Assembly (NCBI GenBank): GCA_027604185.1 | Contig: JADGKB010000128.1 | Coordinates: forward strand, 1-34,664 | From: Boothiomyces macroporosus | Taxonomy: Eukaryota; Chytridiomycota; Chytridiomycetes; Rhizophydiales; Terramycetaceae | DNA length: 34,664 nt | Direction of reading: 5' to 3' | Part shown: piece by piece, positions 1 to 34,664 of the stretch | Numbering within the stretch: position 1 is the first letter of the stretch | Layout: each line of letters opens with the position of its first letter | Program-made: the position numbers and the translations under genes | The notes under the pieces: model-generated | Told to the model about the DNA's origin: nothing | Databases searched by the model: none | The model's input: only the letters and a program-made list of their open reading frames with translations

Positions 1-55
1 AATTTATCCGCTATGATATCTAATATCTAAGAGTTAATTTATCCGCTATGATATC
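1..55. repeat. Two direct 20-bp repeats, 35-bp period
   Basis: The 20-mer AATTTATCCGCTATGATATC occurs at 1-20 and again, exactly, at 36-55, separated by 15 bp. It lies just upstream of the first gene and may be the end of a longer tandem array cut by the window edge, or a promoter repeat. Only two copies are visible. Confidence 0.7.
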
Positions 56-118
56 GAATAGTTTATTATGTGGATAAATACCTTAACTCTTTTTTAATTT
101 CGCTTTTTACAGATCTGC

Positions 119-967
119 ATGTCCACAGCGTATGCACAACCGACTGGAACGATACAGATCACTCAACCTGTTGTTCAAAGCTCGATTTCAAATCCAATCT
201 ACTACAGTATAATCATATTCATTTTACTATTGATTGTCCACTTTTTGATTGCCCGGTACTTTATCGTAAAGAAAACGCAAGTGAAATCAACGCTGTCGAT
301 AGTACAAGTAGAAGCAAAAAAACCGGATCCGGAATTAAGACCGAATGTTGTTACCGTAGAGACTGTGCGATCCCATGATATTATAGATTTGGGACCAGTC
401 TTGCCAATTTCTATCCCAGCAGCACCACCGCTATTTAATATTAAAAACCAAAAACATTTATTGTTTTCCACTTCATCACATGGAACTGAAGCCTTTTTTG
501 ACCTGTTGGATCGATACTTGATGCTGACTAATATCAAGACTAGTACCAGCAACTTGCAAGAATTTGAAATCTTGCAGGATTACCAGGACCAGATTCTGAT
601 ACTTCGGCATTTTTACAACGGGTACTGCTACTGTATGATTAATGATGATGTGATGGGAATGGTTCCTTTGGCGAATATCCATCTTCCCAAGGTAGAAATG
701 ACTTTTGTAATGTTCTACGACCCAGATGTTCCACTCAAAGAAACTAGTTATTTCGAACGAATCAAATATTGCCGTAGATGGTATCCCCAAAATGTATTCT
801 TGTATCCGATCGCGGAGTTGGAAACAATCATGCAAGACGGACATTTCTTTCCTGGTGATTTGTTTATAGTTTGTGGTGGTCAAGATTTGGTCAATTACAG
901 CTCTCGGATTTACAAAAAGTATGGTCACAAGATGCAGTACATTCTGCTGAATGACTTGGGTGAATAA
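119..967 (+). CDS. Single-pass membrane protein with SH3-like cytosolic domain
   Basis: 282-aa product. About 26 polar N-terminal residues precede one strong hydrophobic segment (residues ~27-50) followed by a KK-containing stop-transfer, so the C-terminus is probably cytosolic. Residues ~149-188 read like an SH3 fold (FEILQDYQDQILIL, then GYCYCMINDDVMGMVP), including the ALYDY-like start and the G-x-VP near the end. The last ~90 residues (ending GDLFIVCGG...YILLNDLGE) form a second globular region I cannot name. No signal peptide is obvious. A CTTTTTACAG sequence just before the ATG could be a splice acceptor, so an upstream exon is possible. The stop codon overlaps an AATAAA signal (GAATAAATA). 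It neighbours the PAN-protein array on the same strand. Domain naming is by eye. Confidence 0.75.
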   Translation: MSTAYAQPTGTIQITQPVVQSSISNPIYYSIIIFILLLIVHFLIARYFIVKKTQVKSTLSIVQVEAKKPDPELRPNVVTVETVRSHDIIDLGPVLPISIPAAPPLFNIKNQKHLLFSTSSHGTEAFFDLLDRYLMLTNIKTSTSNLQEFEILQDYQDQILILRHFYNGYCYCMINDDVMGMVPLANIHLPKVEMTFVMFYDPDVPLKETSYFERIKYCRRWYPQNVFLYPIAELETIMQDGHFFPGDLFIVCGGQDLVNYSSRIYKKYGHKMQYILLNDLGE

Positions 968-1391
968 ATATTGTCTTTTTTTGAGTTCAAGTCACGTTGG
1001 TCATTGACATTTTTTAGACAGGCTCATTGTGGTTGGCACTTTACTGGTCGGCTAAACTATTCATGAAATCTAATAGTTATCTTGATTACTGCAATCGATA
1101 AAGTGGATATTTCAAACGTATGTTGTGAATCCCTGCGGCGCAGTTTTACAAATGGACAAAACGGGAGTTCCGGGACCCTACCGCTCTTCTTTAGATGAAA
1201 AGACTGCGATAAGAGATAAATTAAACTTGGCATTCTCTTTGCTGAACTCATTCTAACCGTCAATTAAATTCACCGAGAAGCGGTTTCTTTAACGATTCGT
1301 TTTTTAATTTTGCTTTTCCAAAGTCGTGTGGCCAGTCCGCAATTTTCATGGGGAGTGGAATGGTACTTTTTTTAGACAATTAGAAATTAGA
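968..1391. other. Intergenic, one short coding-like segment
   Basis: No confident gene. Plus-strand positions ~1075-1257 stay open for about 58 codons and contain an ATG at 1152 (MDKTGVPGPYRSSL...). An alternative frame is also open and could use a 26-nt GT-AG segment at about 1120-1145. I could not decide between a decayed exon and chance. Confidence 0.35.
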
Positions 1392-2916
1392 ATGAAGCTG
1401 TTGGTTACAGCAGTCTTGGGTTTAGTTTCCGCCCAAATCAATGACTTTGGAGACAGCTCTGAATTTGATGACGGGTTCGACCCGTACATTACTGACACTT
1501 CAACCAACCAGGGATATCAATGTCAACAGTTATGTGCCAGTAAATGGGATTGTAATTTTTACAGTTTTAGGGGCGGACGAAGACAGAATTATTGTTACTT
1601 GTACAACATCAACTATATTACTTTTTCACCTTCCACTTCATTCAACGCCGACATTGGGTACCGAGGTGGTTGTAGTGTAAAGTACGACTCGAGCAATTGG
1701 TTCTGGGGAAGCTCTAATTCTGGATCAATATCATGCCCAAATAACAATCCACCACCGCAACCAACGCAGCCAGCACAAAAACCACCACTCGGACCAGGAC
1801 CTGCAATCCCACAAATACCAAGCAATCCTGCACCTAATCCTACTGCAGGACCTGCAAATCCACCTGCTGTCCAACCTACTCCACTGTAAGTAATCATTGC
1901 TATGCAATACAGCTGCAGATATTTTTGTTCAGATTAACAATAGTGTAAAGCCTCCAAATGCTCTTCCAACGCCAGGTACACCAACTGCTGCAAATGCCCA
2001 AGGAAACGCTGTGCAAGCTAAAATGCCTTCTGCATCAACAACTGCTTCGCCACCTAATGGTACTAATCCAGCAGGTATTACAGTAAACTCTGACAATTCA
2101 AACTCCAACAACTCTCCGCTTCCGCCTCCAGCTACTTCTTCAGACTCGACAACTTCTAGCAGTTCAAACCTCCGAATGATTTTAGGAATCTCTGCTTTAG
2201 GTGTAGTTGTGTTGGTGGGTGCTGGGTTTTTGTTTAATAGAACTTACAAAAAGAGTGATTTAGAAGCACCGCCAGCTAAACCATTTCCAACTCTGGAATT
2301 TTCTCGTCCGCCTCAAACAGTCCCACAAAAAACACTCCAGGAAATATCGCATGTTGGGCAAGTTCCTGTTCGGTTACGTGAGGAACCAGTTAGAGCCCGC
2401 CAGCTTCCTTTAGGTAGTCAGGCATCCCCAGATGCTGATAGTTCTCAAGTAACACCAGAAACGCCTATTGTGCAAGCTACTGAACCTGCTAAAGAAGTAG
2501 TAAAACCAGCTTCTATGGAAGAGCTTGGTACCTCTACTGTTTTAAACCCGGCATCTATGGAAAGGACTTTTGTCAAGACACCTACAGAAAGAATTACGTC
2601 AAGTGTCAAGGCAGCCTCTATGGAAAGACTTTGTGATTCAGCCGTTGTAAAGCCAACCTCTATGGACAGATTAGTATCATCCAACGTCAAGTCAGTGTCC
2701 ATGGATAGATTAGTATCACCAAAAACAGCTGTAAAGCAACATTCAGTGGATACATTGAGCAAGAAACCAAGTGAAAACGTTTTCAACAATGGTAGATTTA
2801 CTGCAGCTTCTACTTTAGGCTTAAACCCAACACGACAAACCTCTCTTTCAAGCGTCTCTTCTAGTAAGACTCAGACCACTCCAATTATCTCTCAAGAAAA
2901 ACCAGACTTGTCTTGA
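1392..2916 (+). CDS. PAN/Apple-like type I membrane protein 1, repeated SMxRL tail
   Basis: Two exons, 1392-1885 and 1944-2916, give a 488-aa protein. The start was chosen at the internal ATG that opens a signal peptide (MKLLVTAVLGLVSAQ); the upstream in-frame ATG at 1326 would bury it. The ectodomain carries the PAN-like pattern CQQLC-x5-C-x-FYSF-x8-CYLYN. A Pro-rich then Ser/Asn-rich stalk leads to a transmembrane helix (residues ~243-263, MILGISALGVVVLVGAGFLF) with a basic stop. The 58-nt intron (1886-1943) is the longest in the window; only the acceptor ATTAACAATAG keeps the frame. The cytosolic tail contains five or six copies of an S-M-[ED]-[RE]-[LT] motif about 16-20 residues apart (2510-2755). 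The stop TGA is followed by AATAAA. Likely a surface adhesion or recognition receptor; ligand unknown. Confidence 0.82.
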
Positions 2917-3270
2917 ATCGAATAAATCCATTCAAACAGACTTTTTCTTTTCACTTTATGGTAGAGAATTTATAGTGATAAACCGCCTATTATTCGAGAT
3001 TGTAGAAAAGTCGAATTCATTTTATCCAAATTCTTTAAGGAAACAGAGATTCAACTTTTGTAAAGTTGTTTTATTATCAAGCGTGTTAATTGCTAATCTA
3101 AAATTTAATCCAAACTCATGTTCACTCGATAAAAAAGATATCAATGACCACATTTTAATACAGTATATTTACCTATGATGGATGAAAATAGTTGTGTTTT
3201 GATCCCGATCTAAAAGTCGGTAACTGTGCCAAATTTGTTTAAAACGTTCTTTTTGAATTTTTTCAAAATA
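2917..3270. other. Intergenic, nothing recognised
   Basis: AT-rich spacer containing the 3' end signal of the previous gene (AATAAATCC at ~2921) and the presumed promoter of the next. A 67-codon open stretch at 2975-3178 lacks an ATG start and any recognisable motif. Confidence 0.5.
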
Positions 3271-3937
3271 ATGAAGCTACTACTGGTTGGGTCGATAGCA
3301 GCTCATTTCATATCACTTCCAAATTGTAAAGTTAAAGAAAGTGGAGTGGACAGCAGGGCGAAAACAGTGGCTCAATGCCAATCACAATGTGAAAAATTGC
3401 TCGCTTGTAACATGTATTCATACAATCCTCATACTCTAATATGTTCTACTTTTATAGCAAATACGCTTAGTTACCTAGATGGGCCAAACCTATGTAGAAT
3501 GAAAAGTGGATGTCGGAACACGGAAAATCGAATTCAATGCAGCAGAAGCTTTCCCAAGAGGTAGTTTAGCATTAATACAAGTCATATATTGTATTTTTCA
3601 CCTAACATAGATTGAAAGCAACGTCAGCAGTTGAAATGAATTCAGAAATACCAAAAAGGTAAGTGATGCTAATAATAGGACGACAGTACAGCCAACTATT
3701 CCTACAGCCACTATCAGTACAGAAAGCTCAAGTATGACAGTAAATACCCAAACAACAGGACTCCCGGTATTTACAGTTACCCAACACACAAGTAAAGGAA
3801 TGCAATCAATTACTAGCACCCAAACTACATTCTACACAAGCGAGACTTTTGTTGCAACAGCAGCAACTAGCAGTCAGACAAGGGCAGCGATTTCTTTAGG
3901 CATGCTGTGTCTAGGAACTAATTTCTTGGTGTATTAG
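3271..3937 (+). CDS. PAN-like secreted protein 2, probably GPI-anchored
   Basis: Exons 3271-3560, 3611-3658 and 3679-3937 give 198 aa. It starts at the ATG of a signal peptide (MKLLLVGSIAAHFIS) rather than the upstream in-frame ATG at 3226. The ectodomain has CQSQC-x5-AC-x-MYSY-x6-C, matching the paralogues on both sides. A Ser/Thr-rich stalk follows, and the chain ends in a hydrophobic stretch (AAISLGMLCLGTNFLVY) with no cytosolic tail, the arrangement of a GPI-attachment signal. Introns are 50 nt (acceptor CCTAACATAG) and 20 nt (GTAAGTGATGCTAATAATAG), both phase 2, flanking a symmetric 48-nt exon. An AATAAA follows the stop. It is the only array member without a typical transmembrane segment and tail. 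Confidence 0.75.
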
Positions 3938-4255
3938 ATAGAAAATAAAGCTTTCAATAAAGTGAGATTTAAAGTAATTTTACCGCTTTAAAGATGTTAC
4001 ACAGATGTTACGCAGACGAGAACGGTCACAAGCCCATCTTCCTTTGGGGAACTTGGCTCGTGCATGAAACAAACTAGAATAAACAATAGCAACAGATCGT
4101 CAGACTCGATACGCAGAAAGTATTTCGAAAAGTACTTTGGAAGAGTATGTTTATCCTCACTTCATAATACAGGGTTTCGTCTGCAATCACCATGAGCCAC
4201 TGGATCCCGACTCACTTCAAAAGGGGAAACGAAAGACGAAAAAACTCTGAATAGA
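3938..4255. other. Intergenic, nothing recognised
   Basis: Spacer between two array genes. An AGATGTTAC(A/G)CAG motif is repeated twice at about 3992-4016. No open frame with coding character and no RNA gene seen. Confidence 0.45.
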
Positions 4256-5679
4256 ATGCAGTTGGGGTTAGCCTTTCTGTTAACCTTTGCATATGCACAG
4301 TTCAAGGACTTGGGAAAATGTACACTCTCTGGAAATGCCAATGCGCAACTAAATACCAACAATGGAGGGGAATGTCAGCAAGCCTGTGGGAACGATGCCC
4401 AGTGTGTTTATTACTCTTTCTACTATGGAACCTGTACATTGTATCATCAGCTGTCCAGTTCAATTTCATACACTTTGATTTTATGGGCTAATGAAGACTG
4501 TGGGTACAAGACTCAATACTGTACGCAAGGCGGATTTGCTTGGCTCTCACTCTCTTGTTCAGCGTAAGATTTATACTAACCATAGACCACCACCTCCTCC
4601 GTAAATTGATTTTTCTAACTGTAGTCCTCCTCCACCACCACCACCTCCGCCAAAACAACCTAGTCCTCCCCCACCACCTCCGTAAGTATTTAGACTAACT
4701 TTAGACCACCACCTCCACCCAAAACTCAACCTAACCCTCCACCGTCAAATCCAGGGTAATTGTTGTTAACTTTAGCACTGCTCCAGGACCTGTAATCCCA
4801 CAAAATCCACCTGTAGCACCTGGAAATACTGGAAGTGGAAACACTGGATCAAATACACCAAACACTTCAGGAGGAAATTCTGGAACTCCATCATCTGGAA
4901 ATAATGGAGGTACTTCAACTGGAAATAGTGGATCAGGCTCAACCGGAAACTCTGGAAATAAAGGTCCAACCGGTGGAAACCCGTCAAATGGTTCTAATGG
5001 AGCCACCAGTTCGAATGGATCTAATGGAAATACTAAAGGTCAAAATAATCCAAATGGATCTACTAGCACTTCCAACTCTGCACAAGGTTCTTCCACTGGT
5101 ACATCTTCTTCATCCTCTTCTTCTTCGTCTGATGCTCCTTTTGGATTCGGCCCTTCACATACCGATACAGATAACAGCAACAACAATGGAGGCACTGCCT
5201 TCAACTGGGGCGGAAATAGCAACGTTAATCCAAACTTTAACAACGGCACTTCTCCAAACTCAAGCGCTGTGTCTTCTGGAACTACTCTTAATTTGCCACT
5301 GATTATTGGAGTTTCAATCGGCGCTGTTGTTTTATTAGTCGGTGCAGCAATTGCAATCACCAAGAGAAACAAAAAGAGCAAGGACGTTGAATCTGCACCT
5401 GCTCCAAAGCTTGCACCAAACACTCCAAGAAATGCTCCTAGCTCGCCAGCACCAGTGAACCCTGCCGTTACGCAAGCTCGAGCCAACTCATCGCACCCTA
5501 GATTCAGTGCAAACAGCGATTCCTCCTTTGTCACTGATAGACCAATGTCAATTGAACAACCACCAAAAGCAAAATCCTCTCCATTGGTCCACAACCAATC
5601 TGTTTCTTACAAGATGGTAGTCAATGAAGACGGAAATATGGTCGCTACCCCAATAGTAGCTGCCAATTCTCCTCAATAA
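4256..5679 (+). CDS. PAN-like type I membrane protein 3 with four mini-introns
   Basis: Exons 4256-4563, 4586-4600, 4625-4681, 4705-4755 and 4776-5679 give 444 aa. A signal peptide (MQLGLAFLLTFAYA) is followed by the PAN-like unit CQQAC-x5-CVYYSFYYGTCTLY and ...CGYKTQYC. The domain-stalk junction is built from tiny polyproline exons (15, 57 and 51 nt) separated by introns of 22, 24, 23 and 20 nt. Every junction is phase 2, and every intron begins G|TAA, so retention would give an immediate stop. After the splice zone comes a Gly/Asn/Ser/Thr-rich stalk of about 160 residues, a transmembrane helix (~318-339), a basic KRNKKSK stop and a roughly 100-residue tail rich in Pro, Ser and Ala. Probable surface protein. 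Confidence 0.82.
4564..4775 (+). other. Cluster of four 20-24-nt introns with polyproline mini-exons
   Basis: Introns 4564-4585 (22), 4601-4624 (24), 4682-4704 (23) and 4756-4775 (20). Each starts GTAA and ends with a CTAAC/TTAAC branch motif followed by -CATAG, -TGTAG, -TTTAG or -TTTAG. Three are preceded by exon bases CC and followed by [AT]CC, so the polyproline coding repeat plus intron looks like a duplicated unit. Splicing all four gives one continuous frame from signal peptide to tail. Confidence 0.85.
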
Positions 5680-5911
5680 ACTGTTTTTAATGAATTTACC
5701 ATTTTTGCTTGATTCGAGTCTTGAAAAAAATCATGGTGACCAACCATAGAAGAGCCAATTGTAAAACAAACTCGCATTTCCAACAAATCCGTTCTTTGAA
5801 AGGACGCTTGAACTGATGTATTACTTTTATTCCACCTGTCTAATTTCATCCCATTCACATTCGGCATTTTGTTTCAAGAAGCCGAATCACCAAAAACATT
5901 CTTTCACTTTG

Positions 5912-7132
5912 ATGCTCATTCTTCTATGTTTAGGATTAGTCTGCTCTGAAATAATTCCAATTCCGTCGTGCGAGGTGCAGAATATTGGAGGTGCGATTCA
6001 ACCACTTGTCCAATCACCGCCAGACTGCCAGCTAGCTTGTCAAACACTCAACTGCAACTATTACAGTTACTTTATCAGTTGTTATTTGTATTTTGATTAT
6101 GGACAGGTGCGTTATGATCAAGTGCCAGACAGTTATTGTGGGTTCAACAATCAAGTTTGTGCCAAATCTGGATTAAACTCCTTTAACTGTGAGCTGTAAT
6201 TGGATAATAACCCTAGACCAAATGTACCTAAAGGACAGCCATCACAAGTGCCAAATATTCCTCTTCAGTGAGTTTAAACTAACATTAGACCTCCGGTTCC
6301 AACAAATAACCCAAATAATAGAGGTGGTCCTGGATCTGGATCCAATGGCGGACCTTCGAGTCCAGGTAATGGAAATACTTTAGGGAATGGTAGTGGAGGA
6401 TCAACAAACAATGGAAATACAAATAATCAATCATCTAATCAAAATACCAATAATGCACCAGGTCCAAACATTCCTACTCAAACTCAAAGTAGCCCTCCTA
6501 GAAACACTTCTTCAGGGCAACAGATTGTAAACGGTGTGTCAGTAAACGCTGATCCTGGCTCTACCGATTCCAATTCAAATGGTTCTGGTGCTCCTCCAAC
6601 AACAACGTCAAATTCTAGCTCATCAAGTTCTTCCTCAAACTTGGCAATTATCTTGGGGGCATCGGCATTCGCAGTAGTTCTATTGTTAGGCACCGTATTA
6701 TATTACAGACATGCAAGAAAAGTTGGTGATGTGGAGGTTGCTTCAGTAGCGCATTCCCATACTGAAGAGTGGTTGAACAACCAAGTTAAAGAAAGACTTA
6801 ATAACCAAGGTTCCTTGCACAGAGCACAATCTGAAAATTTACCTGAACCTCTACCTGAAAATCTACCTAAACATCTACATGAACCTCTACCTGAAAATCT
6901 ACCTAAACATCTACATGAACCTCTACCTGAACCTCTTCCTGAACCCCTTCCTGAAAATCAACCTGAACATGTATCTGTTGAGCTAACCAACAAGGACGTG
7001 TGTGATAATCCAAGCCCTACTCCAAGTTACCCAATGACCGATGATCCTGATTTCCCAATGACGCCAATTCAGAATGCCAGTCAGCTGATTGATGACACTG
7101 AAACCCAGCCTAGATTTCTAATTTCAAAATAA
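5912..7132 (+). CDS. PAN-like type I membrane protein 4, Pro-Glu repeat tail
   Basis: Exons 5912-6195, 6217-6267 and 6289-7132 give 392 aa. The start is the ATG of the signal peptide MLILLCLGLVCS; an upstream in-frame ATG at 5816 would add a polar leader. Ectodomain: CQLACQTLNCNYYSYFISCYLYFDYG and ...CGFNNQVC. Two 21-nt phase-2 introns (6196-6216, 6268-6288) bracket a symmetric 51-nt Pro-containing exon at the same place as the intron cluster of the preceding paralogue. An Asn/Gly/Ser-rich stalk leads to a transmembrane helix (~229-250). The cytosolic tail has a run of L-P-E-[PN] repeats encoded partly by an exact 36-nt duplication. The stop overlaps AATAAA. Confidence 0.82.
6857..6928 (+). 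repeat. Exact 2 x 36-bp tandem repeat in a coding tail
   Basis: Bases 6857-6892 are repeated without change at 6893-6928, encoding two copies of a 12-residue unit with the pattern E-N-L-P-K-H-L-H-E-P-L-P. Degenerate 12-nt CCTGAACCTCTN repeats flank it. The 36-bp length preserves frame and suggests recent slippage. Confidence 0.9.
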
Positions 7133-7234
7133 ACCTGTAAACCGAGTTTTGTTTCATCTTCCGAGTTTCCAAGAATAAAAAAGGAAATACCCGATCCAAG
7201 AACCTTTTCGTCCTTGCAATGAAAAAATTCTTGA

Positions 7235-8137
7235 ATGCTTCTACTAGTAGGATTAGTACTAGCCCAGTCGAATATACAGCAAATTGGAAATAATTGCGAG
7301 TTATCGGGCAACCCATACGCAATTCTTCACCAGCCATCTTCCATTCTATGTATAAATCAATGCTCTACTGACCCCAACTGCTTGTATTATTCATTTCAGA
7401 ATTTAGCAGAAAACTGCTTGTTGTTTAATCAGGCAGATACAAAGTTGATTATTAGTGGGAGCGGATGCGGGTATAAGAAAGACATTTGTGCTCCTGTTGG
7501 GGGCAATGCCATTCATTGTACAATGTCCTCTAATGGAAGCGGAGGATCTACTAGCACTGGCGGCAGTTCAAGTGGTAATGGGAATGGGAATGGTAATACA
7601 AACACGGGAAATGGAAATACAAATAGCGGTAATGGGAATACAAATAGTGGTAATGGAAATAATGGCAACGGGAATCCTGGAACTGGTTCAAATGGAAATC
7701 AAGCTACCGTTTCAGTAAGCAGCACTCCAAACACGAGAACTATTCCCATAGCCACTGGAATACCATCAGTTACCACACATGCTATTGTGCAAGCAACCAC
7801 TCTGTCAACAAGTGTATCTGATAGTACTAATTCGCAAAGGACAGACATATCATCTCCTACCAATACAGTCACATCCGACCAATCTCAACAATCAAATTCA
7901 AACTCCAACCTGATACCAATCGTTCTAATCATCACCGCGACCGTAATAATTATTGCAGGAATAGCCTTTTACTATCGCTCAAAGTACAATTCAAATAGAA
8001 ATTTCCCCAGTAATATCATTCTGCCTAAAGCGTATATCAAGAAAATGCAAGAACAAGAGGGGATTGTTGGCGTGCAGATTGATTCCGCGATGGTAACTTC
8101 CTCAGAGACTGTTCAGAATAGCAAATCCATAGAATAA
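7235..8137 (+). CDS. PAN-like type I membrane protein 5 (intronless)
   Basis: 300 aa in one exon. Short signal peptide (MLLLVGLVLAQS), then CINQC-x5-NCLYYSF-x6-CLLFNQ and ...GCGYKKDIC, the same spacing as the upstream paralogues. The stalk has about 50 residues of Gly-Asn-Thr-Ser repeats (7560-7690) and a Ser/Thr-rich segment. The transmembrane helix is at ~226-247 (LIPIVLIITATVIIIAGIAF), with a short tail. An ATG at 7219 is out of frame and closes early; the frame of 7235 is preceded by a stop. This is the only array member with no intron in the stalk. The stop overlaps AATAAATAT. Confidence 0.82.
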   Translation: MLLLVGLVLAQSNIQQIGNNCELSGNPYAILHQPSSILCINQCSTDPNCLYYSFQNLAENCLLFNQADTKLIISGSGCGYKKDICAPVGGNAIHCTMSSNGSGGSTSTGGSSSGNGNGNGNTNTGNGNTNSGNGNTNSGNGNNGNGNPGTGSNGNQATVSVSSTPNTRTIPIATGIPSVTTHAIVQATTLSTSVSDSTNSQRTDISSPTNTVTSDQSQQSNSNSNLIPIVLIITATVIIIAGIAFYYRSKYNSNRNFPSNIILPKAYIKKMQEQEGIVGVQIDSAMVTSSETVQNSKSIE

Positions 8138-8155
8138 ATATAGAATTAAAAATCC

Positions 8156-24429: not shown

Positions 24430-25267
24430 AGAGGTTGACGAAATATGAAATTATCGTTGTTTGTGATATCAAGGTGTGTTTAGAGTTGGAATGGTTATTA
24501 CGATCAAAATATTTTCTTTTATAGGTAACGCAGAAATTGATTACCACACAAGTATTTTAATACCACAAACCTGTGGTTAGATTGACTGTTCTTTAATGGT
24601 TGAGGTTTCTTTCAACTTCAGAAGTGTCCAAAGCTTGACATCAACTACTTCTTGATTCGGAAATTCCAAGTTTGCTGTAGACATGGCCCAAAAATCGTCA
24701 CTTGAGGGTATTGCCAAATGTTTCCAGTAGTTTTATCAAGGACCTTGCTTTCAGCATTACTTGTTTTGGTGCCAGTACATCACTTGGTATGAGTTGGGTG
24801 ATATTCAATCAGATTGATTCTTTTTGATTTCCTTAGCAGATAAGCCAGTATAGTTGTATGATTCAAGCACATTGAGAGATTGAAGCATTTCAAAGAGAAT
24901 GCTTTGGCCTTTTAACTGTCTGTTTACTTGACAGTTCCCTTTTTGCCTGGTCAATTCTCTTCAATATCTGCACATATTTAATGTCAATTTGTGATAGTTT
25001 TTCAGGATATTTGCGGTACTTTTTTAACACAGTCAGTATATCGGTTGTAGTCACTCATTTACAGTTGCTGGTACCATTCTTCATAGTGCTATACCGGAAT
25101 ATACGTGATAATAACACAATGTCGCAAACTCTTAAGAGAGATTCTTTATACTTAGCTACAGTGATTGAAAAGTTTATTAGGTGATTCCATAGATCAAGCA
25201 TTTGGTTTTTAGCCTACGCCACATGGAGGTTCCAAAATGTCCCACACTTTTTTTCTTACAAAACAGA
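24430..25267. other. Intergenic with degraded minus-strand coding scraps
   Basis: No intact gene. On the minus strand ~25080-24880 reads VTTTDILTVLKKYRKYPEKL and IKYVQILKRIDQAKREL before a stop; another frame nearby reads GQSILFEMLQSLNVLESYNY; and ~24710-24590 reads AMSTANLEFPNQEVVDVKLW. The frame changes and stops suggest a decayed gene, perhaps another CRN effector domain or a transposon protein. The first two thirds also hold the 3' end of the upstream CRN. Confidence 0.4.
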
Positions 25268-27427
25268 ATGGCCAAACGATTCCTCAACGTTCGATACAAT
25301 GGAGTAAATGCAAGAATTAATGTCACTGAAATGGATGATATCAGTGATGTACAAGATGCTATCAAGGCAACTTTTGGGAATACTTTTGAAAAGATAGATG
25401 CTCCATACCTGCAACTATTCCAACCTCTCGAAAACGGGGAAAAGGAAATTTTGGACTTGGAAGAGATTCCCGAGGACTACTACAGGAAGGTGAAGGAAGG
25501 TGGTCTCTCTCTCGTTATTCGTTGTTCACAACTATCTGTTGCTGGCAATGTGGTTTCTCCAAAAAAAGTTCTCAAAGATTTGCTTGGTTTTGATGTTGAA
25601 GACTCTCAGGTGATTTTCTCCAGACCATCAGTTGTTTTAAGTGGATTCCCAACCAGCGAAATCAGTTACATTGCTCCTTTGATGAACTTTGTTTGCAGGG
25701 ACCAACCTACTCAAATTGTATATAACACTTTGGATGACTATTTGGATTGGAAAGATGTGAGGGTAGGGGAAGCTGAAAAGAATATCAAGTTTGTCACTGT
25801 TGTCGGAACAGCAGGCAAAGGAAAGACAACGTTTGCTCGTCGTTTTCTTGAATTGCCATACACTGGAAAGCATGCTGCTATTATTAATGATTGTCGTGAT
25901 AGTGACAGAAGTTACTGTGTGAGTTGCTGTGATTTTGATTTGTTGAAAGATGGTGAAACCCAACTATCACTACTCGTTTTGTTTGAAGCTTTCAAGTATT
26001 CATTACCTGTCAAAGCGGAATGCCAATCGTTTATCAGAGATTTCTTCAAGTGCTTCCCCAGCTTTAGAGTGTCATTTACAACGACCTTGCAATTTATTAC
26101 TGAAACATTTTGCTTTGAATCAAGTCCTGAGCTTGATAAAAGATTGGTAATTATCAACTTGGATGAAACCAATAATTTACTTACTACTGATGAAGGCCAA
26201 AGGTACCTGAAAGACCTTTTATGTATACTTCGCAGTGCAGCCAGAGGGACCTGCCTTCTTACTATACTCTCTGGCACTCATTCTGATGAATTATTCCAGC
26301 AATTTCAAATTAGCTGCTGCAGATTCGTTGACATTGAGTTATCTTTGATTGGATTGGAAGAAGCAAAGGAGGTGATACTTGAAATGACAACGAATCCAAG
26401 CGAGCATCATATTTCGCCATTTTTGGAGTATCTTTTGACGTTGTGTGGAGGCGTTGGTCGATACTTGGAGTTTGCAATTGTTCAAATGTCTATTATGGGT
26501 TCTGCGGATATGGGTGGTACAGTTATCCAGGGATTCAAGCTGGATGCATACGTACATTTCTTGAAAAACATGCAGACTTCCCAGCACATTGAAACTCTAT
26601 TGGATAAGTTGACCACAGCAGTTGTAGCCTATTACCCGAATGTTTTTAGTAGGTTTTCTGATTTCATTGAATTGTTGTCTTGTTACGCACTTTTCCAATG
26701 GACTGTATCCCGTCAAACTAAAGTCAATCACTTGTCAATTGGTGACCTGGAAAAGGAAGGACTGGTGTTTCTGCAGCCTACTAGCAAACTATCTTATTCT
26801 TACATATGTATAATCCCTTTTATTACCCTCTATTGGGCAATTAAATATTGCAACCAAAGTGTGCAGATTCCGTTTTTGAAAGATATCAAAAGTTATTTCT
26901 CTCCTGATGAATCAGAAAACAATTCTCTGCATATCGTGATGGCGAAATTCTGGGGTTTGTATCGAAAAGACAGCCTACCTGTTGATGCAACTGGAAATTG
27001 CAGGATAAAGCTTTCAGATTTGGTAACCTTGCGTGACGGACAAGTTGATGCTCAAATCAGATTTCGACCCGTATTTACTATTACAGATGCACCTGAAAAG
27101 ATTGAAATGAACAACTACAAACGATACAAGTCTGACCCCGATTCCATTGCCTTTTTGAATGCCAAAGGAGCTACCTTTACCGATGCAGTTATATTTAGTG
27201 AACCAATGATTGGCATAAGGATTTTAAAAGGACTTGAGGAGTTAAATAACCAATCTTTTAAATCTGAAAGGGACAAATTTCCACCTAGTGATATCTTTAT
27301 TTTGATTACAGATGAGAAGCAGGGAGAAATAGTGCTTGGTGACAATGACGTCGTTATTGATTGTGAAAGTTTCAGGGCCTTTGCAGGTCCGCTAATTGCA
27401 TTGCGAAAACTCTACTGTGTGAACTAA
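25268..27427 (+). CDS. Crinkler (CRN) protein with P-loop NTPase, second copy type
   Basis: 719 aa, intronless, starting at ATG 25268 (MAKRFLNVRYNGVNARINV), the conserved header start; the upstream ATG at 25223 would add a non-conserved leader. Header residues 1-~95. NTPase: Walker A G180-T-A-G-K-G-K186-T and Walker B IINLDETNN with D299-E300. A long helical middle and a C-terminal domain with LNAKGATFTDAVIF, which resembles the start of the nuclease core of other CRNs, but the following strand (IGIRIL) lacks the expected Q/E-x-K lysine. So the effector may be inactive or of another type. Regions 25773-27476 are duplicated just downstream. Confidence 0.85.
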   Translation: MAKRFLNVRYNGVNARINVTEMDDISDVQDAIKATFGNTFEKIDAPYLQLFQPLENGEKEILDLEEIPEDYYRKVKEGGLSLVIRCSQLSVAGNVVSPKKVLKDLLGFDVEDSQVIFSRPSVVLSGFPTSEISYIAPLMNFVCRDQPTQIVYNTLDDYLDWKDVRVGEAEKNIKFVTVVGTAGKGKTTFARRFLELPYTGKHAAIINDCRDSDRSYCVSCCDFDLLKDGETQLSLLVLFEAFKYSLPVKAECQSFIRDFFKCFPSFRVSFTTTLQFITETFCFESSPELDKRLVIINLDETNNLLTTDEGQRYLKDLLCILRSAARGTCLLTILSGTHSDELFQQFQISCCRFVDIELSLIGLEEAKEVILEMTTNPSEHHISPFLEYLLTLCGGVGRYLEFAIVQMSIMGSADMGGTVIQGFKLDAYVHFLKNMQTSQHIETLLDKLTTAVVAYYPNVFSRFSDFIELLSCYALFQWTVSRQTKVNHLSIGDLEKEGLVFLQPTSKLSYSYICIIPFITLYWAIKYCNQSVQIPFLKDIKSYFSPDESENNSLHIVMAKFWGLYRKDSLPVDATGNCRIKLSDLVTLRDGQVDAQIRFRPVFTITDAPEKIEMNNYKRYKSDPDSIAFLNAKGATFTDAVIFSEPMIGIRILKGLEELNNQSFKSERDKFPPSDIFILITDEKQGEIVLGDNDVVIDCESFRAFAGPLIALRKLYCVN

Positions 27428-29179
27428 TTGAACCAGAAATTTAAACGAATGAAATTGAAATAAAACGAGTTGTGTCCTGAAAAGAATATCAAGTTTGTCA
27501 CTGTTGTCGGAACAGCAGGCAAAGGAAAGACAACGTTTGCCCGTCGTTTTCTTGAACTGCCATACACAGGAAAGCATGCTGCTATTATTAATGATTGTCG
27601 TGATAGTAACAGAAGTTACTGTGTGAGTTGCTGTGATTTTGATTTGTTGAAAGATGGTGAAACCCAACTATCACTACTTGTTTTGTTTGAAGCTTTCAAG
27701 TATTCATTACCAGCCAAAGCGGAATGCCAATCGTTTATCAGAGATTTCTTCAAGTGCTTCCCCAGCTTTAGAGTGTCATTTACAACGACCTTGCAATTTA
27801 TTACTGAAACCTTTTGCTTTGAATCAAGTCCTGAGCTTGATAAAAGATTGGTAATTATCAACTTGGATGAAACCAATAATTTACTTACTACTGATGAAGG
27901 CCAAAGGTACCTGAAAGACCTTTTATGTATACTTCGCAGTGCAGCCAGAGGGACCTGCCTTCTTACTATACTCTCTGGCACTCATTCTGATGAATTATTC
28001 CAGCAATTTCAAATTAGCTGCTGCAGATTCGTTGACATTGAGTTATCTTTGATTGGATTGGAAGAAGCAAAGGAGGTGATACTTGAAATGACAATGAATC
28101 CAAGAGAGTATCACATTTCGCCATATTTGGAGTATCTTTTGGCATTGTGTGGAGGTGTTGGTCGATACTTGGAGCTTGCAATTGTTCAAATGTCTATTAT
28201 GGGTTCTGCGGATATGGGTGGTACAGTTATCCAGGGATTCAAGCTGGATGCATACGTACATTTCTTGAAAAACATGCAGACTTCCCAGCACATTGAAACT
28301 CTATTGGATAAGTTGACCACAGCAGTTGTAGCCTATTATCCGAATGTTTTTAGTAGGTTTTCTGATTTCATTGAATTGTTGTCTTGTTACGCACTTTTCC
28401 AATGGACTGTATCCCGTCAAACTAAAGTCAATCACTTGTCAATTGGTGACCTGGAAAAGGAAGGACTGGTGTTTCTGCAGCCTACTAGCAAACTATCTTT
28501 TTCTTACATATGTATTATCCCTTTTATTACCCTCTATTGGGCAATTAAATATTGCAACCAAAGTGTGCAGATTCCGTTTTTGAAAGATATCAAAAGTTAT
28601 TTCTCTCCTGATGAATCAGAAAACAATTCTCTGCATATCGTGATGGCGAAATTCTGGGGTTTGTATCGAAAAGACAGCCTACCTGTTGATGCAACTGGAA
28701 ATTGCAGGATAAAGCTTTCAGATTTGGTAACCTTGCGTGACGGACAAGTCAATGTTCAAATCAGATTTCGACCCGTATTTACTATTACAGATGCACCTGA
28801 AAAGATTGAAATGAACAACTACAAACGATGCAAGTCTGACCCCGATTCCATTGCCTTTTTGAATGCCAAAGGAGCTACCTTTACCGATGCAGTTATATTT
28901 AGTGAACCAATGATTGGCATAAGGATTTTAGAAGGACTTGAGGAGTTAAATGAGCAATCTTTTAAAGCTGAAAGGGACAAATTTCCACCTGGCGATATCT
29001 TTATTTTGATTACAGATGCGAAGCAGGGAGAAATAGTGCTTGGTGACAATGACGTCGTTATTGATTGTGAAAGTTTCCAGGCCATTGCAGGTCCGCTAAT
29101 TGCTTTGCGAAAACTCTGTGTTTGAACGAATTGAACCAGAAATTTAAACGAATTAAAGTGAATTGAAATGAGTTGTGTC
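25773..29179 (+). repeat. 1.7-kb tandem duplication inside the CRN locus
   Basis: Bases 25773-27476 recur at 27477-~29179 (offset 1704). The unit runs from the codons for EKNIKFVTVVGTAGKGK to a GAGTTGTGTC motif in the 3' flank. The first unit's end abuts the second unit's start at CCTGAAAAG. Coding parts differ by about 19 residues in ~550 by my count. Confidence 0.9.
27477..29125 (+). pseudogene. Headless CRN copy (NTPase and C-terminal domain only)
   Basis: The reading frame is open from ~27464 to TGA 29123-29125, colinear with residues ~169-719 of the upstream CRN. It has no header and no ATG before the Walker A motif; the first in-frame Met comes about 200 codons in, after Walker B. Walker A (GTAGKGKTT) and Walker B (INLDETNN) are intact and no internal stop has accumulated, so the duplication is recent, or the piece is used through an unseen upstream exon or read-through. 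It shares the upstream gene's frame, but two TAA codons (27425, 27461) separate them. Confidence 0.8.
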
Positions 29180-29563
29180 GCAGTATTTAAATTGTCTGAG
29201 GAATCTTGCTGATATTCAAACTGGTATTGCACTGTTCCTTACTATTAATGTTGGAACAAGTCAAGCCTCAATGCTATCTGTACTGCAGTAGTCAAGTTAC
29301 CTCACTAAAGTGATGCGCATGAATTCTATTCGCATAAGAGCTTTTATCACCAAAGTAATGCTCTTGATTATGTGCTAATCTGGCTTTATAGTTTGATTTC
29401 TCATTCCTAATCACCAAGGTAAGCTTCAAATCTTTGAAGAGTACAAAATGCTTCATTCGGAATATCTTGGTTTTTAATCTTTTACAATGCTGCTTATCCT
29501 TGCATTAAATTAATGCTGTGGATGACATAAATTTGTGATTGACTTTAATTTTTTAGAAATACA
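29126..29563. other. Intergenic, nothing recognised beyond duplicated 3' flank
   Basis: The first ~54 bp are the duplicated 3' flank of the CRN unit. The rest is AT-rich with no coding frame, RNA gene or repeat that I can support. Confidence 0.45.
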
Positions 29564-29765
29564 ATAGTGAGAAGATTCCTCAATGTTGAATATGATCGAG
29601 TGAAAGCGGAAATCAATGTTACAAATGTAGAAAGACTCTGTCAAGTACAACTTGCTATCAAGGCAAAGTGGTATGGATATGGCTGACGTTTGTGCTGCAC
29701 AGAGTCAACTCTTCTAACCTCTCGACAATGAGGAAAAGCATATTGGCAAATTTCAAGGTTAAAGA
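29564..29765 (+). pseudogene. Decayed CRN header, plus strand
   Basis: Frame reads VRRFLNVEYDRVKAEINVTN then RLCQVQLAIKAK, clearly the CRN header, but the start codon position is ATA (29564-29566) instead of ATG, there is a TGA at 29684-29686, and the LFQPLDNEE block needs a frame change. No NTPase follows. It faces a second header on the opposite strand 33 bp away. Confidence 0.8.
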
Positions 29766-29797
29766 TGAGATCTAAACTTCTGGTGTACTACGGATAA

Positions 29798-30040
29798 TTA
29801 ATGAGTGCTTGACTTCTTCAAAGTAATCTTGGGGATAGTATTGAATAGCTTCCAATTGTTTATATGCATTTCCTCACTGTCGAGAGGTTGGAAGAGTTGA
29901 ATTTGTACTTTAACGGCATCCATTACAGGACCATACTTTGCCTTGACAGTAAGTTGTACTTGACCGAGTCTTTCTGCATTCGTAACATTGATTTCCGCTT
30001 TTATTCCATTATATTCAACATTGAGGTATCGTTTGGCCAT
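29798..30040 (-). pseudogene. Isolated CRN header ORF, minus strand
   Basis: 80-codon ORF with intact ATG (30040): MAKRYLNVEYNGIKAEINVT, QVQLTVKAKYG, IQLFQPLDSEE. It covers most of the header and then runs into unrelated residues and a stop; no NTPase or effector follows. About 85% like the decayed plus-strand header at 29564, giving a head-out inverted pair. It could be a header-only gene, but truncation is simpler. Confidence 0.75.
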
Positions 30041-30270
30041 TCTGTTAAAAGTGTAGGACCAGGGATGAAGATACTAGGTTATATAAACTTTGGTATTAAC
30101 AAAAAACCTAATTGACCAGATTTTTACAGTCTTTTTCAATATCGTGCTTAACATTTTTAAATTCAGAAATCAGGGAATCGCAGTGATACAATGGAGGAAT
30201 TATCTTTCAACCTTGATAAAGTCAGTGAACAAACGCAGGACATTGAAGAGCGACCAGAGGATGGATTAAC

Positions 30271-31068
30271 TCAAAAGAAAAGAGGACTGTCACAATCCTC
30301 AATCTGGGATGTTTTTACTGATGTTCCGTCAGAACGCAAAGAAAGCGTGATTCTTTCTACTGGCTTGTCAATTTTGCTTGAGAAACTCTTTGTTTCCCTA
30401 GCAGCGAGAATCTCTTTCATTAGAGGGTGTATTAGCGCTATATTTATCGACCAGAACAAGTAAATCAACTCTTCAGCAGTTGGACTGTTGTAAACTATTG
30501 AAAACACTAATGAAAGCAAGAAACCAATCATGTATATAAATTGGATCGCAATAATTATCCAGAGAGATACTGGGGCATTCCTTCCAATGTGGAACAGCCG
30601 TGTCATTTCCTTAAAGAACCAAGAATGAACTATTGTTTCCTGTACTAGCAAGCCAATATTGGTAATGTCCCAAACAAGAGCAGACACTGATCCTAATTTT
30701 GTGCTGAAATATCCAGCAATTGAAATGACATCAGCTGTGGGATAGAGAATGGGATACACCCACAAAATGTTTGCCACCATTCTTTCTCTATCTGTCATTA
30801 GACAGGATTTTAATCGTATCACATATGCAAATTCCAGTAAACAAGTGTTTACTATATCGCATATATTTCCCAGTATATCCAATGGAATAATTGCACGCTC
30901 ATCTACTCCAGAAGCAAGAACAAGTAAAGAGATGATATATATTGACTGAGCAGTTATAGTTGCCAGTATAAGTAAATTGATGATTCCAGTAAATCCTCGT
31001 CCATAGAATTTGCAATTCGAAAGAGCATAGCCTAGAATAATCAATGCCAAAGAGTAAAAAATCGCCAT
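30271..31068 (-). CDS. Seven-transmembrane protein
   Basis: 265 aa, single exon. Starts at a membrane segment (MAIFYSLALIILGYALSNCK) and has six more (INLLILATITAQSIYIISLL; LGNICDIVNTCLLEFAYVI; VANILWVYPILYPTADVISI; LVWDITNIGLLVQETIVHSW; WIIIAIQFIYMIGFLLSLVF; LIYLFWSINIALIHPLMKEI). The ~40-residue tail has RKT/S-type sites. No long ectodomain, no DRY or NPxxY. The general layout recalls the transmembrane half of the gene at 20630, but without convincing motif identity. A plus-strand ORF (30191-30463) overlapping its tail is treated as a shadow. Confidence 0.75.
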   Translation of the reverse strand: MAIFYSLALIILGYALSNCKFYGRGFTGIINLLILATITAQSIYIISLLVLASGVDERAIIPLDILGNICDIVNTCLLEFAYVIRLKSCLMTDRERMVANILWVYPILYPTADVISIAGYFSTKLGSVSALVWDITNIGLLVQETIVHSWFFKEMTRLFHIGRNAPVSLWIIIAIQFIYMIGFLLSLVFSIVYNSPTAEELIYLFWSINIALIHPLMKEILAARETKSFSSKIDKPVERITLSLRSDGTSVKTSQIEDCDSPLFF

Positions 31069-32764: not shown

Positions 32765-33557
32765 AATAAAGGTTTTCTACAGTTCAAGTAGATTCTATGA
32801 TCATAAAGCTGTGGAAATGAAGTGATTCCGACTCTATCAGCGGTTGATGGCTGGAATTAAAAGTATTTGTTGAAAGGCTTCTTCGTCTCGGCGAAGCCGA
32901 TTCTAACAATTGCTTGATCATATTCTTTGTCCGATATGATAGTACAAGGAATCGAGAACTCTCAATACCATCATAACGGTAAAACACATTAGACTATGAA
33001 TTCTAAACCACGTAATTTAAACTAGAACTTGCCTTTGAAACTTTTTTTTGAAATGCTTCCAGATGTTTTTGTCTTGTGTCGAGACTATTTGTAACTAAAC
33101 TCATGAGCCTAAATGAACCTTGTCAGAAATGCTGCTCACAGACTAAGTTGTATTTGCTTTGGCTACTCCAGCGACATTAGACGATCTCAACCTGCCTCAT
33201 ATGACAAAGATCCTGAGGGTGGTGGAAGGAAATTCTAGTGTATCTAAAGTTTCACTCTAGATGGATTTAAAATGAGCAAATAAAGAGGTATAATTGTTCA
33301 TTAGTGTTTCCCAAGAGTGTTGTTTGATCGAATCTGTGGAACAAAACTTATCTGCGCATTCACAGTCTTTTTTTAACCATTGGATCTGGATCAATGACGG
33401 ATAGGGCGAGGAACAGGGCCAAGGTGATACTGTTAATCTTTCATTGGGAAGTGGTATTCCAAAATCCTTTCAGTCACCTAAATTCAGAAAATGTCACGAC
33501 ACTACTATTTTGGGAACTACATGTGGCTAAACTTTAAAGCATTTCTCTTGCTTTCTG
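32765..33557. other. Intergenic, mostly featureless
   Basis: Minus strand 32987-32784 is open (YRTKNMIKQLLESASPRRRS ...) and resembles a receptor tail but has no ATG or upstream exon. A small hairpin TCGGC-GAA-GCCGA lies at ~32889. The remainder shows no supported gene and contains the promoter of the ABC transporter gene. Confidence 0.4.
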
Positions 33558-34556
33558 ATGGCCAAAGGAAAATCATCAATATTTAATGCAGTCACACACG
33601 CATGGGCAACCCCATTCATTAGAAAAGCAGCAAGGGAAGAAGTGCAAGCTGAAGTATCTTTATTCTAAATTAGGACACACCAAACCTAGCAATTGCATAC
33701 AGCAAAATAACTGACCAAACTCTAGCATATTTTGAGGAATTGAAATTGTATCTGGATGGAGTAAACCCAAAGCCACCTAGTCTTTACTGGCATTTGTTCA
33801 AGATTTATCAAAAGGAAATGTACATTCATCGTAATCTAGATTTTCAATGACAGTGTTAAACTTGGCTTCGATGATAATTGCCGCTTTTAAACCACTGTTC
33901 ATTGGCCAAGTAGTCTTTTTTAAAATAGTTTATCTCGTATCTAGATTCCTCTGCACCCAGTGAATATTGGTTCAGCAACATTTCAGTTATCCTTATATTG
34001 CTACTCGTAACTTCAATCTGTCCTCCAGCCTTTGATTCATTCGCGAATGGAATTGATGCAACTTTTATATCCAATTTCTACTTGCAAGTGTACTCTATGA
34101 TGTACCAGAAAATACTAAGGCTCAGTGCAATCAGTCGCTTGGTAATCGAGGACTAAAATAGAAATACGAAACCGGAAACTTGATTAAAATGTACGATCGA
34201 GATGCCTACCGAATCTATCGAGGATTAACTATAATCAACAGTTGTATTCTCCCAATTATTCAAATTATTACCAACTTGATTTTCCTGCAGTACTTGATTG
34301 GGCTTACTACACTTTTCACAGCTATCTGGTATTTTACTTTGCTGGTTCCAATTGTTTTGCTGCAACTGAAGCTTCAGAAGTATGCAACCGCTTCAAATAT
34401 TCTTCAGGATAGTAGATTAAACATTCTACGTGAAATTTTTAAAAGTAAAAAGAACTAATAATAGATATCAAGAAAATCAAACTCTCTAATATACAAGAGT
34501 ACTTTTATGAGATGGTCAAAGAGAATATTGACCAAGATATGGATGTAATATACAAG
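33558..34556 (+). CDS. ABCC/MRP-type ABC transporter, truncated by telomere repeats
   Basis: Exons 33558-33653, 33674-33830, 33854-33909, 33929-34141, 34162-34444 and 34465-34556 total exactly 299 codons. Introns are 20, 23, 19, 20 and 20 nt. Spliced, the protein follows the ABCC start: FNAVTHAWATPFIRKAAREE with the W-x2-P core, an ED-x-PNLA block, SLYWHLFKIYQKEM, a first membrane pair (LLNLASMIIAAFKPLFIGQ), SVILILLLVTSICPPAFDSF, the coupling region SMMYQKILRLSAISRL-KYE with TGNLIKMYDRDAYR (family form TGEIVNLMSVDAQR), further helices and DSRLNILREIFKNIKKIKL (family form R-x2-x-NEIL-xx-IK-xx-K). Full members are ~1300 aa, so the rest of TMD1, NBD1, TMD2 and NBD2 are missing. The frame runs directly into TTAGGG at 34557. 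The intron at 33831 has a weak branch site. Confidence 0.87.
33910..33928 (+). other. 19-nt intron in the ABCC gene
   Basis: GTAGTCTTTTTTAAAATAG, phase 0. Splicing turns ...PLFIGQ + VVFFKIVYLVSRF-stop into PLFIGQ-FISYLDSSAP, which continues through a full membrane helix; unspliced, the frame stops within 18 codons. Confidence 0.85.
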
Positions 34557-34609
34557 TTAGGGTTAGGGTTAGGGTTAGGGTTAGGGTTAGGGTTAGGGTT
34601 AGGGTTAGG
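34557..34609 (+). repeat. Telomeric TTAGGG array, 8.8 copies
   Basis: Eight perfect TTAGGG units plus TTAGG. The G-rich strand runs 5' to 3' toward the right, the orientation expected for a right chromosome end. The array starts inside a coding exon without any subtelomeric transition. Confidence 0.97.
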
Positions 34610-34664
34610 CAGCGCATCCGCGAAAGACATAGCCTTCGGGTTAAAGTAAGAGGTCGTCGGCTGG
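34610..34664. other. Non-telomeric sequence distal to the telomere array
   Basis: 55 nt, about 56% G+C by count, clearly richer than the rest of the window. Begins CAGCGCATCCGCGAAAGACA. It contains one degenerate telomere-like TTCGGGTTA and no recognisable gene. It could be an adaptor or assembly artefact, the far side of an interstitial array, or an element inserted in the telomere. Read in the ABCC frame it closes at TAA 34647-34649. Confidence 0.6.

Follow-up and report, generated by a model that had tools for sequence, protein, structure and literature searches.

A class of ultrashort, probably U2-type introns of 19–22 nt in the chytrid fungus Boothiomyces macroporosus

The window analyzed here is the whole 34,664-nucleotide (nt) contig C128 of Boothiomyces macroporosus, a chytrid fungus of the Rhizophydiales (Terramycetaceae) with a genome of 15,203,306 bases in 216 contigs. 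Its genes are interrupted by segments of about 20 nt that start with GT and end with AG. These are very probably genuine introns of the major spliceosome, and the existence of a 19–22-nt intron class is very secure. Beyond the window, further stretches were sampled (G+C content of 38%); the data cover one genome and about 2% of its length, in a partly gene-centered sample. All intron evidence consists of genomic DNA and protein homologues, from which splicing is deduced.

A gene finder at a lenient setting, with lengths limited to 17–27 nt and positions 22160–30480 masked, places 30 introns in 12 gene models of the window. Of these, 28 are 19–24 nt long; the individual lengths are 8 × 19, 11 × 20, 3 × 21, 3 × 22, 2 × 23, 1 × 24, 1 × 18, and 1 × 27 nt. 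An initial annotation of this DNA had listed 29 introns, 26 of them of 19–24 nt, in twelve loci, and by comparison of the totals the two agree closely. A window intron that nothing else supports is less secure than the class as a whole, and four calls are doubtful (1672–1693, 1886–1912, 20971–20988, and 33831–33853). The better described introns and the UTP6 gene are given below with strand, host gene, and evidence; "motif" denotes the donor–branch–acceptor pattern and "finder" the gene finder.

10811–12721, plus strand: UTP6 gene (protein of the U3 small nucleolar ribonucleoprotein), 616 amino acids after removal of three introns; Pfam U3_assoc_6 at 1.3e-28, homologues including a GenBank protein of B. 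macroporosus at 97% identity
10892–10910, plus strand: UTP6 intron 1, 19 nt, branch A at 14, tail of 5 nt; motif, finder, Terramyces junction
11970–11991, plus strand: UTP6 intron 2, 22 nt; motif, finder, junction matching the GenBank model and Terramyces
12560–12578, plus strand: UTP6 intron 3, 19 nt, branch site other than TAA[CT]; finder, Terramyces junction
3561–3581, plus strand: 21-nt intron, small secreted receptor-like gene; finder only
3591–3610, plus strand: 20-nt intron, same gene as 3561–3581; finder only
3659–3678, plus strand: 20-nt intron, same gene as 3561–3581; motif and finder
4564–4585, plus strand: 22-nt intron, Pro-rich receptor-like gene 4256–5679; motif and finder
4601–4624, plus strand: 24-nt intron, gene 4256–5679; motif and finder
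4682–4704, plus strand: 23-nt intron, gene 4256–5679; motif and finder
4756–4775, plus strand: 20-nt intron, gene 4256–5679; motif and finder
6196–6216, plus strand: 21-nt intron, receptor-like gene 5912–7132; motif and finder
6268–6288, plus strand: 21-nt intron with GTG donor, gene 5912–7132; motif and finder
9790–9808, minus strand: 19-nt intron, putative C2H2 zinc-finger gene (name from the initial annotation); finder
9912–9930, minus strand: 19-nt intron candidate, same putative C2H2 gene; motif only
13255–13273, minus strand: 19-nt intron, gene 12748–13581; motif and finder
13039–13058, minus strand: 20-nt intron, branch site other than TAA[CT], gene 12748–13581; finder only
15959–15978, minus strand: 20-nt intron, membrane receptor-like gene 15831–16811; motif and finder
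16071–16090, minus strand: 20-nt intron, gene 15831–16811; motif and finder
16301–16319, minus strand: 19-nt intron, gene 15831–16811; motif and finder
16477–16495, minus strand: 19-nt intron, gene 15831–16811; motif and finder
17014–17033, minus strand: 20-nt intron, gene 16894–17750; motif and finder
20178–20196, plus strand: 19-nt intron, membrane receptor-like gene ending at 20495; motif and finder
21388–21407, plus strand: 20-nt intron, branch site other than TAA[CT], gene 20687–21957; finder
33654–33673, plus strand: 20-nt intron, right-end gene, putative ABC transporter (name from the initial annotation); motif and finder
33910–33928, plus strand: 19-nt intron, same right-end gene; motif and finder
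34142–34161, plus strand: 20-nt intron, same right-end gene; motif and finder
34445–34464, plus strand: 20-nt intron, same right-end gene; motif and finder

The call at 1886, in gene 1392–2916, depends on the setting: in one finder run it is a possible 58-nt intron (1886–1943), which by eye ends in TTAAC and a short tail, and in the lenient window run it takes 27 nt, the limit of that run.

The length class emerges from motif counts in which GT[AG] followed by TAA[CT] and then AG was counted separately for each total length between 12 and 60 nt and compared with a first-order Markov sequence. The sample consists of the window and twenty 10-kb stretches (469,328 strand-bases, about 235 kb on both strands). 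A clear excess is confined to 19–22 nt, with 115 pairs observed against 51 expected at 19 nt, 146 against 52 at 20 nt, 98 against 61 at 21 nt, and 83 against 53 at 22 nt. The floor at 19 nt is sharp, neither flanking length is in excess in this sample (37 against 40 at 18 nt, 58 against 56 at 23 nt), and the biggest deviation outside the class lies at 43 nt (77 against 59). Hence, the dominant class that the initial annotation had put at 19–24 nt stands as an ultrashort class, with its range corrected to 19–22 nt by the motif excess. Both donors it had named, GTA and GTG, are seen; however, GTA opens ~96% of the GT[AG] candidates. The donor consensus reads GTA[A].[T]. Upstream of the AG lies a branch site of the consensus [CT]TAA[CT], mostly with 5–6 nt from the branch A to the intron end, as foreseen with the TAA[CT]-like motif; what has to be added is that its position is fixed, with the branch A at 14 or 15. 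Donor, branch site, and acceptor are packed together and leave no room for a polypyrimidine tract, again as described initially.

This fixed position is seen best when donor-to-branch distance and tail length are counted jointly (332,921 bases from 50 sources, GTA donor, second-order null). Branch positions are herein assigned by motif in the DNA and denote predicted branch points. For a branch A at position 14, tails of 5 and 6 nt yield 88 and 69 pairs against 5.2 and 4.2 expected; with the branch A at 15, the respective counts are 61 and 53 against 5.8 and 4.2. Together, these four cells hold 271 pairs against 19.5 expected, and the block of branch positions 14–16 with tails of 4–7 nt holds 362 against 54.5. 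Minor cells, written as branch position and tail, are (15,4) with 21 pairs, (16,5) with 19, (15,7) with 17, and (16,6) with 11. A branch A at 13 shows no excess with tails of 4–7 nt (15 pairs against 17.75), and neither does cell (14,4) with 4 against 4.8. The geometry is that of a double ruler: 14–15 nt lead from the donor to the branch A and 5–6 nt from there to the end of the AG. For branch positions 18–39, 471 pairs are found against 406 expected, an excess which by a rough estimate corresponds to chance GTA trinucleotides upstream of real branch sites.

Intron phases were counted by branch position (50/47/30 for 14, 39/32/29 for 15, and 12/8/4 for 16). The proposal that the TAA of the branch site acts as an in-frame stop upon retention and thereby ties phase to branch position was rejected, since no link appears in these counts. 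An in-frame stop is present in 41 of 55 introns of 21 nt against 103 of 171 introns of 19 and 20 nt; the higher share at 21 nt is what surveillance of retention would favor and is a weak sign of it. The core geometry was also counted in 134 long open frames against synonymous shuffles (sense, 22 against 6.7; antisense, 3 against 9.3). As a test of exonic decoy avoidance this is unreadable because real introns probably lie within those frames.

That removal of the segments restores the reading frame, as the initial annotation had stated, is borne out by a test in which a candidate is excised and the 90 + 90 nt of flank must stay open, with joints shifted by 1 or 2 nt as the control. Unshifted joints beat shifted ones at each length: 63 of 111 against 23 and 28 at 19 nt, 77 of 145 against 44 and 44 at 20 nt, 46 of 94 against 11 and 22 at 21 nt, and 35 of 83 against 16 and 18 at 22 nt. 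From 25 to 60 nt, the unshifted joint is favored only at some multiples of three. At those lengths, leaving the piece in also preserves the frame, and the 21-nt figure is partly inflated by the same effect.

Gene finding with decoys gives the same length class. The finder combines a codon score with donor and branch/acceptor matrices, which include the distance of the branch site to the AG and omit its distance to the donor, and with a flat length prior of 12–100 nt. Decoys were made either by complementing the matrices or by reversing the two end dinucleotides. In 324,601 bases, with block 22160–30480 masked, 317 introns are called, 249 of them at 19–22 nt (58, 115, 52, and 24 by length). The complemented matrices yield 108 introns with 5 at 19–22 nt, and the reversed dinucleotides 125 with 6. 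No other length range of this sample exceeds the decoys: real calls number 6 against 4 and 7 at 12–18 nt, 8 against 7 and 7 at 23–30 nt, 22 against 43 and 50 at 31–60 nt, and 32 against 49 and 55 at 61–100 nt, where the result from 23 nt upward is tied to the short-intron motif, and long introns with other signals would escape. The modeled coding sequence amounts to 226 kb, which with 249 introns puts the density of the ultrashort class in coding sequence at ~1.1 per kb. Extrapolation from these 249 introns, or from a net 307 motif pairs, in 0.32–0.33 Mb suggests some 11,000–14,000 such introns genome-wide.

Alignments with homologous proteins allow single junctions to be checked. Eighteen predicted ultrashort junctions were compared in this way; at 17 of them, conserved residues run on across the joint and the alignment shows no gap there. 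In UTP6, all three (19, 22, and 19 nt) are continuous with the residues of Terramyces, and the GenBank model (P0001) loses 12 and 6 residues at its two 19-nt introns. In U2AF65, all four (19, 20, 19, and 19 nt) agree with Globomyces; the GenBank model agrees at three junctions, loses residues at one, and is apparently fused to the neighboring gene. Agreement is likewise found for the three counted junctions of Kap123 (19, 20, and 22 nt), both of glycerol kinase (21 and 20 nt, the first four residues ahead of an alignment gap), both of Slu7 (20 and 23 nt), two of three in SF1 (22 and 21 nt), and the one junction in the homologous part of SNRNP27K (20 nt, FETTK|NKK). The count of 18 leaves aside the start-codon junction of Kap123, a junction of SNRNP27K beyond the homologous part, and the junctions of METTL16. 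In Kap123, moreover, two replacements were scored for one long call of the finder; both share the same 21-nt GT..AG intron plus an exon of 90 or 84 nt. The long call is judged wrong and the 21-nt intron likely from the alignment. For the other intron, a 26-nt GC..AG version scores 305 and a 20-nt GT..AG version with canonical geometry 303; the latter is preferred by us, though the former scores higher. Neither replacement intron enters the count of 18. The Kap123 protein of Boothiomyces sp. JEL0866 (P0203) lacks the same conserved exon that the finder skips, which hints that this relative shares these introns. Gene models that drop conserved residues at such introns hence include P0001 and P0083 of B. 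macroporosus and probably P0203 of JEL0866, and small exons lying between ultrashort introns may be missing from models of chytrid genes.

The splicing machinery was sought in a small part of the spliceosome, namely U1, U2, and U6 plus seven proteins; U4, U5, Prp8, Cwc25, Yju2, Isy1, and SF3B1 lie outside this set. The U1 small nuclear RNA (snRNA) has a canonical 5′ end, AUACUUACCUG. Two copies of U2 snRNA (142.2 and 135.4 bits; L031 and L032) carry GUAGUA and differ in their 3′ halves, and one copy of U6 snRNA above the cut-off (62.2 bits) carries ACAGAGA. All seven proteins are detectable: SF1, U2AF65, U2AF35, Slu7, Prp18, METTL16, and SNRNP27K. SF1 contains its helix-hairpin and KH regions. 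U2AF65, matched exon by exon, comprises RRM1, RRM2, and the C-terminal domain after splicing, and its stretch KLNYWDQKPKGYE is presumably the tryptophan motif that binds U2AF35. U2AF35 itself is found as four collinear pieces that cover residues 3–186 of the human protein (C1:324316-324904). SNRNP27K scores 24.8 bits (cut-off of 23.1), matches the human chain at 1.7e-8 after splicing, and has Met at 141 in the alignment. The genes of U2AF65, SF1, Slu7, METTL16, and SNRNP27K contain ultrashort introns themselves; the Prp18 model contains none. U2AF, SF1, U1, and U6, to which the initial annotation had pointed, are all detected, U1 and U2AF65 below curated cut-offs. The specialized spliceosome that it had taken to be implied finds no support in these parts: the sought RNAs have canonical recognition sequences, and seven of seven proteins are present.

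Donor preferences were taken from the 251 introns for which just one spliced frame is open. Position +4 is A in 60%, position +5 is G in only 16% and T in 44%, position +6 is T in 56%, and the exon position −1 is G in 48%. In Saccharomycotina, the loss of METTL16, SNRNP27K, or M141 goes with U at donor position +4, according to the available text of PMC10581693. The preference for A at +4 fits the retention of METTL16, SNRNP27K, and M141. For the rare G at +5, no change in U1 or U6 provides an explanation; loss or change of U1 as its cause was discarded with the canonical U1 5′ end. In yeast, Slu7 and Prp18 matter for longer branch-to-acceptor distances. Their loss through short distances was considered as well and dropped, both being present. 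U12-type introns have a strict ATATCC or GTATCC donor and a strict branch site, TTCCTTAAC; the consensus sequences GTA[A].[T] and [CT]TAA[CT] do not match these signals. The segments have GT-AG ends and the branch consensus of U2-type introns, the genome encodes U1, U2, and U6 with splicing factors, and excision restores coding sequence.

Taken together, the segments are very probably real introns that are removed by the major (U2-type) spliceosome, ordinary in every part sought, and that have nearly all shrunk to a 19–22-nt module: a GTA[A] donor, the branch A of [CT]TAA[CT] at position 14 or 15, and a tail of 5 or 6 nt that ends in the AG. Donor and branch site would be recognized across the intron as one unit. 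The footprint of U1 and then U6 (+1 to about +6) would almost abut that of U2 (about BP−6 to BP+1, BP being the branch point), which could set the floor of 14 nt—roughly six donor bases plus six branch-site bases with hardly any spacer. As the distance itself would carry information, the donor could have lost G at +5 while keeping A at +4, and the 3′ splice site would simply be the AG 5–6 nt beyond the branch point. Deletion bias may have driven the introns down to this functional floor; that it acts down to a threshold is a view put forward in the available text of PMC10245619. We tentatively consider a further step, doubtful as it is, in which distance has replaced sequence: a rigid 19–22-nt module would be read as one object, pairing of +5 G with U1/U6 would have decayed, and longer introns would be all but lost. 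If so, the present machinery would splice an intron of ordinary length inefficiently at best.

Several points weigh against the reading as U2-type introns of an ordinary spliceosome. It rests on genomic sequence rather than on transcripts, and the steric argument is drawn from known pairing. U1 scores 68.8 bits against a gathering score of 69.5, i.e. 0.7 below it, and U2AF65 reaches 230.7 bits against a cut-off of 310.3. The finder's matrices derive from candidates in the very DNA that was searched, a bias which the flat prior and the decoys limit and do not remove. At the lenient setting, decoys in the window yield 9 and 9 introns against 30 real ones (4 and 4 against 25 at 19–22 nt), and because they still yield 9 each, several single window calls may be false. 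The genes with checked junctions were chosen by us and are not a random set; herein, the 24-nt junction of SF1 adjoins a small alignment gap, and the finder's 131-nt intron in Kap123 is contradicted by homologues. Finally, the GenBank models miss or misplace two of three UTP6 introns and one of four U2AF65 introns.

Such inconsistent annotation would also suit assembly indels or artefacts of gene prediction, as would the overcalling of a naive finder (1189 introns at a first, untightened, and overfitted setting) and the window decoys just given. Hundreds of segments are, however, alike in motif, length, and frame behavior, conserved proteins require their removal, and 5–6 decoy introns stand against 249 real ones. 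This comparison refutes an artefact for the class, for which we give it next to no credence, while individual introns may be wrong. Slightly less remote, and still highly improbable, is a removal by other means, such as translational bypassing or a ciliate-like elimination of the DNA. A short, uniform length with exact junctions would be compatible with these mechanisms too, but the GT..AG ends, the branch motif at a fixed place, and the splicing machinery in the genome argue for splicing, and GenBank models already splice some of the segments (including some of 19–22 nt).

Two other readings accept the introns. An ordinary, longer population could exist beside the ultrashort one, with signals invisible to the motif search and missed by models trained on short introns. 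The possible 58-nt intron from window position 1886, ending by eye in TTAACAATAG, and the small excesses at 43 nt (77 against 59) and at branch positions 18–39 (471 against 406) are consistent with it. Against it, the finder's calls from 23 to 100 nt do not exceed the decoys in any range, and the sole long call checked against homologues, that in Kap123, is contradicted; we regard such a second population as rather unlikely. Alternatively, the introns are genuine and the spliceosome is structurally altered, with Cwc25, Yju2, Isy1, and parts of Prp8 having lost elements that clash with a 14-nt lariat loop. This is a stronger form of the preferred reading, the probabilities of the two overlap, and we hold it to be possible rather than probable. 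Stentor, with introns of 15–16 nt, has five major snRNAs and non-conserved regions in its branching factors where these face the active site, and altered branching factors were conjectured for it (available text of PMC9505925). In B. macroporosus, no sought part is lost or obviously altered, which covers neither Cwc25, Yju2, and Isy1 nor Prp8. Specialization inside U4, U5, Prp8, Cwc25, Yju2, Isy1, or SF3B1 is possible because those parts were not sought, and an unmodified spliceosome is not secure, with Prp8 and the branching factors outside the set.

The remaining features of the window are of other kinds. At its right end, nine perfect TTAGGG-type telomere repeats (34556–34609) stop 55 bases short of the contig end, and the bases beyond them (34610–34664) are of a different sequence. 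The gene model from 33558 enters the repeats, so that a chromosome end may truncate this gene. By eye, positions 1392–8137 hold a tandem cluster of genes for secreted, cysteine-bearing, Pro- or Ser-rich single-pass membrane proteins; a weak PAN-domain match of the final one stays below the cut-off (E 0.008). Receptor-like multi-pass membrane proteins lie at 13683–14618, 18435–19403, 19526–20495, and 30271–31068; those at 18435 and 19526 are alike by eye, and the three that were scanned (13683–14618, 18435–19403, and 30271–31068) have no Pfam match. A phytanoyl-CoA dioxygenase family protein is encoded at 8186–8956 (E 1.9e-14), and a PLOD glycosyltransferase domain is matched at 14785–15711 (E 1.8e-18). 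Within 25193–29125, two adjacent open frames share a stretch of more than 500 residues that looks near-identical by eye; weak AAA/NACHT matches of the first stay below the cut-off, and the N terminus appears Crinkler-like by eye, with no match to a Crinkler family. The frame 22261–24429 has no Pfam match. Scans of the window for transfer RNAs and for Rfam families at the gathering score found neither.

The remark in the initial annotation that such sizes are near the smallest known and unexpected in a fungus agrees with the literature as far as found, in which comparable classes are published only outside fungi; in open-licence literature, nothing was found on Boothiomyces introns or on introns this small in fungi. 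For other Chytridiomycota, which are intron-bearing members of the same phylum, a mean of 3.93 introns per kb in two species compares with the ~1.1 per kb detected here, and the available text of PMC8476143 does not mention an ultrashort class. Microsporidia are fungal relatives with relatively short introns; their introns are few, against the ~1.1 ultrashort ones per kb of coding sequence in B. macroporosus, and their spliceosome is reduced (available text of PMC10245619). Chlorarachniophyte nucleomorphs have nearly the same lengths, 18–21 nt, according to the same text; theirs, however, is a relict endosymbiont nucleus of ~300 genes, whereas the introns described here reside in the main nucleus of a fungus. 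The mikrocytids M. mackini and P. canceri, obligate parasites, resemble B. macroporosus in having an extremely narrow ultrashort length class, theirs of 16–17 nt; they have 17–19 spliceosomal proteins, only U2, U4, and U6 identified, and 224 introns in M. mackini (available text of PMC10245619). B. macroporosus differs by thousands of introns by extrapolation, a U1 with an intact 5′ end, and the presence of U2AF35/65 and SF1.

The heterotrich ciliate Stentor coeruleus has introns of 15–16 nt with the branch A mostly at 10 or 11 and a 5-nt tail, as given in the available text of PMC9505925. Both systems share a near-uniform length, GT-AG ends, AU-richness, a fixed branch A, and canonical recognition sequences of U1 and U2. 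They differ in length (19–22 nt here), in the position of the branch A (14–15 against 10–11), in the host, here a fungus, and in the branch consensus, which is [CT]TAA[CT] in B. macroporosus and not strong in Stentor. All five major snRNAs are reported for Stentor; in B. macroporosus, U1, U2, and U6 were found, and U4 and U5 were not searched. The tail of 5 nt is as long as in Stentor, while the loop exceeds Stentor's by 4 nt, a pattern suggestive of separate floors for the two steps of splicing. By analogy, the branch-to-AG distance may be a common floor and the donor-to-branch distance be set by lineage. The minimal intron size that the standard spliceosome can process becomes testable in a fungus, in which two separate distances (14–15 and 5–6 nt) can be altered one at a time. 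With very narrowly distributed lengths, a mode of at most ~22 nt, and a fixed predicted branch position, B. macroporosus joins the ultrashort-intron genomes: its introns are of a kind known from heterotrich ciliates, mikrocytids, and nucleomorphs and, as far as searched, new in a fungus.

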